Assembly: GCA_021792135.1 (NCBI GenBank)
Contig: JAJYVF010000003.1
Location: forward strand, 154,326-218,325
Direction: 5' to 3'
Length of the DNA: 64,000 nt
Source of the DNA: Acidobacteriota bacterium
GTDB taxonomy: Bacteria; Acidobacteriota; Terriglobia; Terriglobales; Acidobacteriaceae
Numbering within the stretch: position 1 is the stretch's first letter; each line of letters starts with the position of its first letter. This document shows positions 36,417 through 44,272 of this stretch, in pieces. The notes beneath the pieces are model-generated. The model did not search any database. It was not told the DNA's origin and worked only from the letters and a program-made list of their open reading frames with translations. The translations under genes were made by a program, and so were the position numbers.

Positions 36417-36757
36417 CCGAGTCGACAGCCGGCGGAATCATCCGGGAGAAACCGGAGTTGCTGATTGCACGGCTGGAGTCGCTCATCGACGGCGAGGCTG
36501 CGGCAGACTGTCGTGACGGGTACGAATGGCTTCGTGAGCAGCCGCGCAGTCTTTCCAGCCGAGAACCTCGGTTTTCTTGCTCTCCAGACTCTTATAGACA
36601 GAGAAGAAGTGCTCCACCTCGCGCAGGATGTGAGGCATCACGTCGGTGTAATTCTGGATGTCGTTCGCACGAGGGTTTCCTGTTGCGAAGGCAAGAACCT
36701 TTTCGTCCGGGATCCCCTGATCGAGCATCTCGAACAAGCCAATGGGTCTCGCTTTAA
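36413..36757 (+). CDS. Doubtful ORF coupled to the metallophosphatase
   Basis: Begins at ATG 36413, overlapping the previous stop as ATGA. The first ~45 residues (TESTAGGIIREKPELLIARLESLI...) look coding, but from base 36483 the frame runs antisense to the pyrophosphatase gene and becomes Arg/Ser-rich. Either a short protein whose 3' part was lost when the ppa side was joined, or chance. Confidence 0.2.
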   Translation: MTESTAGGIIREKPELLIARLESLIDGEAAADCRDGYEWLREQPRSLSSREPRFSCSPDSYRQRRSAPPRAGCEASRRCNSGCRSHEGFLLRRQEPFRPGSPDRASRTSQWVSL

Positions 36758-37016
36758 AGACGCACCCTGGAAACGTTGGCGAGTCGCCGGGAATCAGAAT
36801 GTCGAGAGGATCGCCGTCCTCCGCCAGGGTCTGGGGAATAAGGCCATAATCCCCGGGATAATGCACTGGCGAATGGAGTACACGGTCGAGCCGGAAGACG
36901 TGCAGCTTTTTGTCGTACTCGTACTTATTGACGCTGTCGAGAGGGATCTCGACCACAGCACTAACAATCTCCGGCGCAACATCGCCAATGGGCAGTTCCA
37001 GATAGTTGTCCGTCAT
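36483..37016 (-). CDS. ppa: Soluble inorganic pyrophosphatase
   Basis: Family I Mg-dependent enzyme hydrolysing PPi. Motifs: VEIPLDSVNKYEYDKK, PGDYGLIPQTLAEDGDPLDILI and VEHFFSVYKSLE. 177 residues. ATG 37016 follows AAGGAG at 5-nt spacing, whereas the longer frame lacks a site. It is the last gene of the minus-strand block with dynamins, DUF190 and crcB (171 bp gap). Soluble pyrophosphatases are strongly inhibited by fluoride, which fits a fluoride-response locus. Confidence 0.95.
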   Translation of the reverse strand: MTDNYLELPIGDVAPEIVSAVVEIPLDSVNKYEYDKKLHVFRLDRVLHSPVHYPGDYGLIPQTLAEDGDPLDILIPGDSPTFPGCVFKARPIGLFEMLDQGIPDEKVLAFATGNPRANDIQNYTDVMPHILREVEHFFSVYKSLESKKTEVLGWKDCAAAHEAIRTRHDSLPQPRRR

Positions 37017-37187
37017 TTCGCTCCTTCTGCAATCCCTTGCATCGGCGCAAAAGAAAACTCCCGCACCCATGCAGGAGTCATCAGCCATTCCCTTTCGGAT
37101 GGCAGTTATCGGTGGATTCCGTCGCCTTCCCTCAGGATGTAGCACAGCAATCAACAGCCTGCAACGCGAAGACCCGACCGAACCGGA

Positions 37188-43022: not shown

Positions 43023-43035
43023 AGGCGTTTTCAGC

Positions 43036-43086
43036 TTGCAGGAGTCATTTGCCCAGTGAGCACTGGAGGGTGGACTCCAACACCCG
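43036..43086 (-). promoter_or_regulatory. Fluoride riboswitch-like element (crcB motif)
   Basis: The minus-strand RNA can form P1 GGGTG/CACCC (43081-43085 with 43068-43072), P3 CCAGT/ACTGG, and a pseudoknot GGAGTC (43073-43078) with GACTCC (43041-43046). The order and spacing of P1, loop, pseudoknot strand and the 3' AATGACTCCTGC match the ~52-nt crcB motif. Two features deviate: the usual GAUG is GUUG, and the J1/3 linker is short. It sits exactly between enolase and the dynamin-crcB-DUF190 operon, whose content independently predicts such a switch. Confidence 0.6.
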
Positions 43087-44272
43087 TACGACCGTTACGC
43101 TTGCACCGAATGGTTCCAGCGCTCGTAAATGCTGGCGCCGGCGTAGCGGGCCTTTGAACCGAGTTCGCGTTCGACCTCCAGCAGGCGGTTGTACTTCGCG
43201 ATGCGCTCACCGCGGCTGGCCGAGCCGGTCTTGATCTGGCCCATGCCGCACGCGACCACGAGGTCGGCAATGCTGCTATCGTCGGTTTCGCCCGAGCGAT
43301 GCGAGATCACCGCCCCGTATCCGTGACCGCCAGCCATCGCAATGCAATCGAGGGTTTCGGTCACGGTGCCGATCTGGTTCAGCTTGATCAGAATCGCGTT
43401 GGCGATCCCGTCCCTGATGCCCTGCTGGAAGAGCCCCGGATTGGTCACAAAGTTGTCGTCGCCGACCAGCTGAATCTTGTTGCCCAGTTCTTTCGTAAGT
43501 TGTTGCCAGCCGGCGCGGTCGTCCTCAGCCATGCCGTCCTCGAGCGACCAGATCTCCGGGTATTGACGGAGCCAGTCTTTCCAGAGCGCGATCATCTCGG
43601 CAGAGCTCTTTTTGCTCTTATCCGATTTCCAGAACTCGTAAGTGCCGTTCTCGTAGAGTTCGCTGGCGGCGGGATCCAACATGATGACGATATCCTCGCC
43701 CGGCTTGTAGCCGGCCTTGCCAATGGCCTCGAGGATCAGCTCGATCGGCTCTTCGTTGGACTTCAACTGTGGAGCGAAACCACCTTCGTCGCCAACGGCC
43801 GTGCTGTAACCCTTCGCATGGAGAACGGATTTCAGCGTCTGGAATGTCTCGGCCGAAGCGCGCAGAGCCTCGCGGAAGTTTGGAGCGCCGACCGGCGAGA
43901 TCATGAATTCCTGAAAGTCCACGCTGTTGTCGGCATGGCGGCCACCATTGAGAACGTTCAGACCGGGAGTCGGCAGCAGGTTCGCCGGCTTCTCCGCCAA
44001 AGCAGCGTATAGCGGAAGCCCGCGATCGGCGGCGGATGCGCGCGCAACTGCGAGGGAGACGCCGAGAATAGCATTCGCGCCGAGGCGGGCTTTATTCGGT
44101 GTTCCGTCCAGGTCGCAGAGCTTCCTGTCGAGGCCCTTCTGGTCGTTCGCATCGAGGCCGTGCACCGACCGCTGGATCTCACTTTCCACATGACTGACTG
44201 CTTTCAGGACACCTTTGCCGCCGTAGCGCGATTTGTCACCATCGCGCAGTTCCACTGCTTCTCCAACACCCG
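43075..44272. repeat. 12-bp direct repeat around the truncated enolase
   Basis: CTCCAACACCCG occurs at 43075-43086 (inside the riboswitch-like aptamer) and at 44261-44272 (at the 5' break of the enolase gene), in the same orientation and 1186 bp apart. The second copy marks where enolase homology stops. Illegitimate recombination at such a repeat could explain the truncation; a chance match is possible. Confidence 0.4.
43095..44255 (-). CDS. eno: Enolase lacking the N-terminal ~45 residues
   Basis: 386 codons from GTG 44255; full enolases have about 430. From ELRDGDKSRYGGKGV to the end all catalytic parts are present: GDEGGFAP, MLDPAASE, SLEDGMAEDD, LIKLNQIGT, SHRSGETDD and KTGSASRGERIAKYN. 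Upstream in frame one reads AGVGEAV, then a TGA, so the first strand and the mobile SGAST loop that closes over the substrate and second Mg are missing. GGAG lies 5 nt before the GTG. Either a pseudogene or a truncated second copy. Enolase is fluoride-sensitive and often found in fluoride regulons. Confidence 0.85.
   Translation of the reverse strand: MELRDGDKSRYGGKGVLKAVSHVESEIQRSVHGLDANDQKGLDRKLCDLDGTPNKARLGANAILGVSLAVARASAADRGLPLYAALAEKPANLLPTPGLNVLNGGRHADNSVDFQEFMISPVGAPNFREALRASAETFQTLKSVLHAKGYSTAVGDEGGFAPQLKSNEEPIELILEAIGKAGYKPGEDIVIMLDPAASELYENGTYEFWKSDKSKKSSAEMIALWKDWLRQYPEIWSLEDGMAEDDRAGWQQLTKELGNKIQLVGDDNFVTNPGLFQQGIRDGIANAILIKLNQIGTVTETLDCIAMAGGHGYGAVISHRSGETDDSSIADLVVACGMGQIKTGSASRGERIAKYNRLLEVERELGSKARYAGASIYERWNHSVQA

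Follow-up and report, generated by a model that had tools for sequence, protein, structure and literature searches.

A subfamily of dynamin-like GTPases linked to predicted fluoride riboswitches in bacteria and archaea

We analyzed a 64,000-nucleotide stretch of contig JAJYVF010000003.1 from an Acidobacteriota bacterium (the window, whose numbering we use for coordinates given without a locus or contig name), in which a locus at 36483..44255 carries two genes for dynamin-like GTPases, dynamin 1 and dynamin 2, among genes and RNA elements associated with fluoride. An earlier note on this DNA had assigned the locus to the fluoride response, which is supported by the fluoride riboswitch aptamers and companion genes described below. 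We favor, at a probability of about 0.62, a reading in which this is a fluoride-response locus whose dynamins belong to a riboswitch-linked subfamily, are induced by fluoride, and tether or reseal the membrane under fluoride stress. The computations found the aptamers themselves, their position at the dynamin genes, covariation in their helices, a dynamin fold in structure prediction, and the clustering of linked dynamins in a tree. The link between dynamins and fluoride is in our judgment nearly certain; membrane repair or tethering, which we infer from the fold and the genomic company of the riboswitch-linked dynamins, is somewhat better than an even prospect.

Dynamin genes behind fluoride aptamers

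We searched 99 Acidobacteriota genomes, drawn evenly, with the fluoride riboswitch model RF01734 and the dynamin profile PF00350 (Dynamin_N), counting dynamin matches above 70 bits as strong and using 54 aptamer matches, 5 of them below the Rfam cut-off. A fluoride riboswitch lay no more than 5 kb from 19 of the 23 strong dynamin matches (17 of 21 when the window's own genome is excluded), as compared with none within 10 kb for the next 35 rows among the matches listed, in which some genes give two rows. For all 17 outside the window's genome the aptamer was upstream on the same strand, with one aptamer (in G122) below the Rfam cut-off. The four strong exceptions were a gene cut by a contig end (G110) and three tandem genes on a single contig (G122:C105). 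Counted by genome, aptamers were present in 16 of the 17 with a strong dynamin versus 20 of the 82 without one (Fisher p 8e-8). The enrichment that the earlier note had asked to see was thus found.

Within a set of 61 genomes, 16 (the window's own included) had a match to dynamin 1, and a full or broken dynamin 1 was present in 9 of the 12 genomes of the window's genus. The crcB gene, which encodes the Fluc fluoride channel, followed dynamin 1 in seven loci including that of the window; only a remnant followed it in L043, and in L047 the contig ended at that point. An aptamer in the gap between enolase and dynamin 1 was found in six congeners.

One congener locus (L045:14898-19787) held a third fluoride-switched operon, made up of an aptamer and genes for a metallophosphatase, a cyclopropane-fatty-acid (CFA) synthase (PF02353, 8.4e-85), a HEAT-repeat protein, and a third dynamin. 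A CFA synthase lay near the third dynamin in three congener loci (L045, L058, and L059), of which L045 and L059 also showed the aptamer and L058 had a contig that ended before the aptamer position; L046 was without the synthase, and no fetched locus beyond those three had a match to it at E≤1e-8.

Outside the phylum, a scan of a genome collection returned at least 47 dynamin loci. We searched these 47 with R1, an aptamer model built from 23 fluoride aptamers (22 from relatives and one from the window), and at E≤0.01 it reported an aptamer only in the three most similar loci, which were from Terriglobia (L060), the archaeon Methanolinea (L061), and a deltaproteobacterium (L062), and none in the other 44. 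In L061 the order was aptamer, dynamin, 301-residue protein, enolase. We then counted a dynamin as linked when the start of the longest open reading frame (ORF) was overlapped by, or no more than 300 bp away from, a same-strand RF01734 match above cut-off, and applied this definition to the phyla of L062 and L061, which were chosen through a positive locus that is included in the counts. In the deltaproteobacterial phylum, 45 of 247 genomes had a match, and 24 of the best 30 loci were linked (23 of 29 without the founding locus); a match of 559 bits (G158:C159) and the weaker matches fell outside those 30; one of the 24, L142, had a dynamin that was itself interrupted by a TAA. In the archaeal phylum, 12 of 246 genomes had a match, and all 13 of their loci were linked (12 of 12 without the founding locus). 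The association that the earlier note had proposed from one locus recurs at the gene start in other genomes.

The earlier note had also described the dynamins as tightly coupled to the channel. The overlap with crcB is real, but the link goes beyond it: among 20 loci selected from the 43 of these two phyla, all with an aptamer, simple ORF calling left the dynamin as the sole gene behind its aptamer in 11 (L170-L175, L177, L181, L184, L186, and L189), and we therefore rejected mere coupling to the fluoride channel as an account of the association. In Desulfobacca acetoxidans (L131/L173; 100% protein match P0241), one aptamer heads the dynamin and a divergent one heads crcB, DUF190, and a gene resembling Na+/H+ exchangers. 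The neighbors of linked dynamins included enolase, crcB, DUF190, UspA, a Na+/H+ exchanger, and a MutS-type protein.

The helices of the aptamers covaried. In 103 of them, 12 of 13 pairs changed on both sides; the pseudoknot, which lies outside the search model, was paired in 97.5% of cells, with 4 of its 5 pairs covarying; and the whole structure was paired in 96.2% of cells versus 37–70% for slid versions. The leaders point to how expression might be controlled. Five (L127, L128, L130, L131, and L132) had 11-base hairpins followed by a T-run, and three (L107, L110, and L114) showed leader pairing with the ribosome site. The window keeps a start-codon pairing between ATGACTCC and GGAGTCAT, and the same pairing was present in 7 of 7 sequences of the genus. 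Control by a fluoride ON switch is likely, judging from these leaders. In the window's genus, the AUGACUCC arm of the aptamer would have two alternative partners: the aptamer's own GGAGU loop when fluoride is bound and, when it is absent, GGAGUCAU, in a pairing that would cover the ribosome site and the dynamin 1 start codon.

The riboswitch-linked subfamily and its predicted fold

In a tree of 157 dynamins, all 65 riboswitch-linked rows fell in one group of 73 (SH-like approximate likelihood ratio test (SH-aLRT) support of 98) and 84 others lay outside it; the tree came from a quick search and has long branches, and because its rows were gathered by similarity it shows that the trait follows kinship, not how frequent the trait is. 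We removed from it ORFs below 300 aa, one short fragment of the interrupted L142 gene, and L127 and L157, which were duplicates. For the three third-dynamin rows, the aptamer on which the linked label rests leads an operon of several genes, and for some acidobacterial rows it lies 0.8–4.8 kb upstream. Of the eight unlabeled members of the group, three later proved to have an aptamer (L167, and L151 and L153, extended as L238 and L239, at 1.5–2 kb upstream), one (L135, extended as L234) lay in an eno-dynamin-crcB unit in which no aptamer was detected, and one (L124) was cut by a contig end. We regard a putative fluoride-responsive dynamin subfamily as well supported by these sequences.

Dynamin 1 (40923..43013, minus strand; 696 aa; PF00350 9.3e-23) consists of an N-terminal helical domain (residues ~1–155), a GTPase domain, and a helical stalk; dynamin 2 (37188..38954, minus strand, with the start taken as 38954; 588 aa; PF00350 3.9e-27) was the other intact member in the window. 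The two scored 81.5 and 95.8 bits against a curated Dynamin_N cut-off of 27. Their motifs GRVSSGKSS/GQFKRGKST, DTPGLGS, and SKSD/NKAD, which we take to be the P-loop, DTPG, and N/SKxD motifs of the GTPase, were intact and were invariant or nearly so in alignments A1 and A2. A long helical neck and trunk followed the GTPase domain. The model of dynamin 2 had a mean confidence (pLDDT) of 80.7 and matched IniA, BDLP, and Cj-DLP1/2 in the PDB; overall, the fold matches comprised IniA, BDLP, Cj-DLP1/2, and mitofusins, and a profile match to BDLP ran over positions 45–580 (1.8e-37). The most hydrophobic stalk segment was at the predicted tip (residues 447–499) in 18 of the 22 rows, most of which came from near relatives; within that tip, model confidence is low at 456–480.

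The model of dynamin 1 had a pLDDT of 70.7 and was poor over the N-terminal 160 residues, and because of this poor quality we make no claim about the fold of that domain, whose best Pfam match had an E of 0.03. The N-terminal ~155 residues also stand alone, as a small protein directly behind aptamers, in three loci (L054:8546-9019, L055:1227-1673, and L056:7557-8081). This small protein matched no Pfam family, and the N-terminal piece looks like a new fluoride-linked family that has become fused to dynamin.

Proposed role and competing explanations

We propose that fluoride having entered the cell as hydrogen fluoride (HF) would open the switch, so that the dynamins are made, and that these would bind the cytoplasmic membrane on its inner face, where tethering or resealing would be their most likely action, alongside export through Fluc and the supply of extra fluoride-sensitive enzymes. 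We prefer tethering or resealing because the nearest known relatives act on membranes. In the available portions of two accounts, Cj-DLP1/2 tether membranes (PMC6104087), and DynA has a reported role in membrane surveillance, clusters on nisin treatment, and is hypothesized to be recruited to damaged membranes (PMC8844932). Because the group is present in archaea, an outer membrane is not needed, and we counted this in favor of the same reading, as we did the lipid-modifying enzyme near the third dynamin in three congener loci and the usual absence of another strong dynamin that could be replaced. A broader formulation, in which a dedicated fluoride-induced dynamin subfamily in bacteria and archaea would form a membrane arm of resistance apart from export and enzyme replacement, and beside fluoride-switched lipid cyclopropanation in some Acidobacteriota, is to our minds evenly balanced.

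The neighboring enolase and pyrophosphatase genes encode enzymes that are inhibited by fluoride, according to the available part of PMC11139923, and solved structures exist of GTPases trapped with AlFx. The dynamins might accordingly be GTPases that are poisoned by fluoride (for example as GDP-aluminium-fluoride) and of which the switch makes more, as it would for enolase and pyrophosphatase. However, the extra enolase has a housekeeping copy elsewhere, whereas there is usually no other dynamin to replace: among the matches listed, of the 15 other Acidobacteriota genomes in which a strong dynamin is riboswitch-linked, 13 (all but G086 and G122) had no further Dynamin_N row above 40 bits, and we consider dosage replacement quite unlikely. 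That the dynamins instead serve transport, by organizing or delivering the Fluc channel or by budding vesicles that export fluoride salts, would fit the one-base overlap of dynamin 1 with crcB in the window, the closely following crcB in six congeners, and the divergent aptamers that head crcB and dynamin in Desulfobacca (L173). Against this, crcB was missing from the dynamin's own unit in the 11 loci of 20 noted above, and on the window branch dynamin 1 has remained constrained (omega 0.15) whereas crcB has loosened (0.53) and is interrupted, although these values come from small counts; such an accessory role is unlikely.

The distribution of the dynamins is patchy (the 16 of 61 genomes, own included) and spreads over bacteria and archaea, as it would if they were passengers on a mobile fluoride-resistance cluster with no part in the response. 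We find this very improbable, given that the dynamin often comes first, or stands alone, behind a switch of its own, that the gene order around it varies between phyla, and that its coding sequence is under purifying selection.

Several observations weigh against membrane tethering or resealing by a fluoride-induced subfamily. The phylum of an aptamer-negative locus, L073, had matches in 69 of 251 genomes, from which 30 loci were fetched; at 290 bits or more, only 4 of 10 had an aptamer directly upstream (L197 and L200 by Rfam, L198 and L199 by R1 alone), with two others being L195, which had marginal R1 matches, and L196, which was cut by a contig end, and 0 of the 20 weaker loci had one directly upstream. 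Some of the other loci of that phylum were near enolase, ppa, or uspA (L231, L232, and L224), and L224 had an Rfam aptamer ~5.5 kb upstream. Within the group of 73, no aptamer was found for L146, L147, and L150, even in wider flanks (L235, L236, and L237). An automatic scan for expression platforms gave a mixed result, with 21 of 55 leaders beating a composition shuffle at p≤0.05 and 25 of 55 having neither a terminator nor pairing with the ribosome site; the shuffle was a plain one of composition, the arm was put in the wrong place in some rows, and we place little weight on the scan. The Foldseek template-modeling (TM) scores to dynamins were low (0.33–0.35 of the query), and in L061 and L062, the only rows from outside Acidobacteriota, the tip segment was not the most hydrophobic. 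In the window genome itself, the aptamer of dynamin 1 is without the conserved AAC core that is invariant in 23 aligned aptamers. Moreover, our proposal gives no role to the DUF190, Cys/His, and N-terminal domains.

The known RF01734 regulons (crcB, eriC-F, eno, ppa, uspA, Na+/H+ antiporters, and mutS) share the aptamer family and several of their companions with the loci described here, but dynamin-like GTPases, present here, are not named in the available parts of three accounts (PMC11139923, PMC5533749, and PMC2864571). The responses that these sources name are export, antiporters, phosphatases, enolase, UspA, or MutS, with no dynamins in the same portions, and the available part of the first frames resistance around export, pH, phosphate, metal, and metabolic enzymes (PMC11139923). 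The FRM operon of Enterobacter cloacae (ppaC-uspA-eno-gpmA-crcB-orf5249) is likewise led by a riboswitch and has an extra enolase, pyrophosphatase, and Fluc, as given in the available part of its description (PMC5533749); it differs in that its gene list there contains no dynamin and in that, in the window locus, separate units have aptamers of their own. Nostoc BDLP, Bacillus DynA, mycobacterial IniA, and Campylobacter Cj-DLP1/2 have in common with the window dynamins the GTPase motifs and a long helical stalk, and the window's genus has its dynamin genes in pairs, a common arrangement among bacterial dynamins according to the available part of PMC6104087. In contrast, the known bacterial dynamins have no tie to fluoride in the portions available of PMC6104087 and PMC8844932, while the subfamily here carries fluoride riboswitches and often consists of a single gene.

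We did not find the combination of a dynamin with a fluoride riboswitch in the open-access literature, although supplements lay outside that search and an earlier mention is possible; among the open-access papers listed that name both a dynamin and a riboswitch, no title or abstract start had fluoride as its topic. The main catalogue of riboswitch-linked genes is reportedly that of Baker et al. 2012. To our knowledge, few bacterial dynamins have a defined trigger. If our proposal is right, this would, as far as the searches show, be the first riboswitch-controlled family of dynamins, and would represent a route to surviving fluoride without pumping it out. It would add a membrane component to fluoride resistance and a marker for fluoride loci that lack crcB, and a subfamily that responds to one ion by way of its own RNA switch would offer a clean, chemically controllable system for studying dynamin function.

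The locus in the window genome

ORF calling and profile searches agree with the gene order and the single (minus) strand that the earlier note had reported, and with the two aptamers included the order is enolase, aptamer, dynamin 1, crcB, an ORF joining a Cys/His gene with DUF190, DUF190, dynamin 2, aptamer, and ppa. The operon enolase (43095..44255) is followed by the dynamin 1 aptamer (43032..43093; 18.4 bits with Rfam, 36.0 with R1) and dynamin 1, which shares TAATG with the crcB frame (40525..40923) in a one-base overlap; the crcB frame shares ATGA with the next ORF (39269..40528). The DUF190 gene (38959..39315; PF02641 6.5e-31) stands 4 bp before dynamin 2, as was also noted earlier. Beyond dynamin 2 are the aptamer of the inorganic pyrophosphatase gene ppa (37065..37135), whose 3′ arm overlaps a terminator-like hairpin with a T-run, and ppa itself (36483..37019; PF00719 2.7e-52), all of these on the minus strand. 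On the plus strand, a third aptamer with a GGGGU/ACCCC pseudoknot variant (35503..35585; R1 36.4 bits) precedes a metallophosphatase gene (35655..36416; PF12850 1.3e-24), the first gene of a divergent fluoride operon.

The earlier note had rightly placed a riboswitch-like RNA before dynamin 1 but had listed neither the stronger ppa aptamer nor the third one. Only the ppa aptamer, which was the window's contribution to the R1 training set, exceeded the RF01734 cut-off (38.1 versus 34 bits); the other two were absent from that set and rest on R1 and on orthologues. The third was unreported by Rfam at E≤1, and Rfam likewise reported nothing at the orthologous sites in four congeners (L045, L046, L053, and L059). 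We rejected chance as the source of the weak Rfam match at 43032-43093 because orthologous aptamers occur in six congeners, and we put a weak match of R1 at 5441-5518 (16.9 bits, E 0.1) down to chance. The whole genome had four R1 aptamers at E≤0.001, three of them in the window locus, and chance is an unlikely source of this association. The fourth (C10:497-572) heads a second, intact locus (L125:497-2190, G000:C10) with an aptamer, crcB, and DUF190 genes.

Judged from its sequence, the locus around the two intact dynamins is decaying in the window genome. The earlier note had correctly identified enolase and crcB but had not noticed their degradation. The crcB frame, with a full CRCB match across the interruption, is broken after 83 codons by an in-frame TAA (40674-40672), where a functional Fluc operon would have an uninterrupted frame; crcB was open in L040, L041, L042, L044, L045, and L046. 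Enolase begins at profile position 46 and covers positions 46–423 of 425, so that it is 5′-truncated, whereas the gene is whole in L040, L042, and L045, and a full enolase is encoded elsewhere in the window genome (G000:C13). An aptamer lies 0.2–0.3 kb upstream of enolase in L040 and L045; no such leader aptamer of enolase was found in the window. L040 also had a strong aptamer (L040:5316-5377, plus strand, 59.6 bits) divergent from the enolase operon, with ~670 bases of contig beyond it.

What the earlier note had read as a Cys/His-DUF190 fusion is two genes, a Cys/His gene and a double-DUF190 gene, merged by a frame change particular to the window genome. We rejected a genuine two-domain protein because the two are separate ORFs in relatives (L040, where the second runs off the contig, L045, L046, and L054). 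Compared with L045 and L046, the window has 1–2 extra bases near 39944 and a 139-base gap, in the double-DUF190 gene, after 39453. The ATGA overlap that had been described between this ORF and DUF190 holds in the frame kept by relatives, but not in the sequence as it stands, in which the merged ORF runs 46 bases beyond the DUF190 start and stops at 39269. The divergent operon of L045 continues after the phosphatase with genes for the CFA synthase, HEAT-repeat protein, and third dynamin, all of them absent from the window. The window had no CFA synthase match at E≤1e-3 and no HEAT-protein match better than chance, and a third-dynamin query there returned only dynamins 1 and 2.

Omega values for the window branch, with those of a relative in parentheses, were 0.53 (0.17) for crcB, 0.46 (0.19) for DUF190, 0.38 (0.08) for ppa, and 0.25 (0.14) for enolase, as compared with 0.15 (0.16) for dynamin 1, 0.29 (0.30) for dynamin 2, and 0.16 (0.26) for the Cys/His gene, all from small parsimony counts. 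The still constrained Cys/His gene, and dynamin 2 being no tighter than in the relative, run counter to a simple picture of decay. Some of the lesions, including the crcB stop and the gap, may be assembly errors. Because the locus is decaying there, it may respond to fluoride weakly or not at all in this genome.

Internal deletions recur in this operon among congeners (L041-L044): L043 lost crcB and the genes that follow it, L042 and L044 lost the Cys/His gene, and L041 is without enolase, the Cys/His gene, dynamin 2, and ppa. Dynamin 1 was open in the window and six fetched congeners and broken in L047. Beyond the divergent operon, a tRNA gene at 34850-34932 (minus strand; Rfam 47.3 bits) shares bases with the 5′ end of an apparently SecG-like ORF (34892-34497), whose start codon is probably too early.

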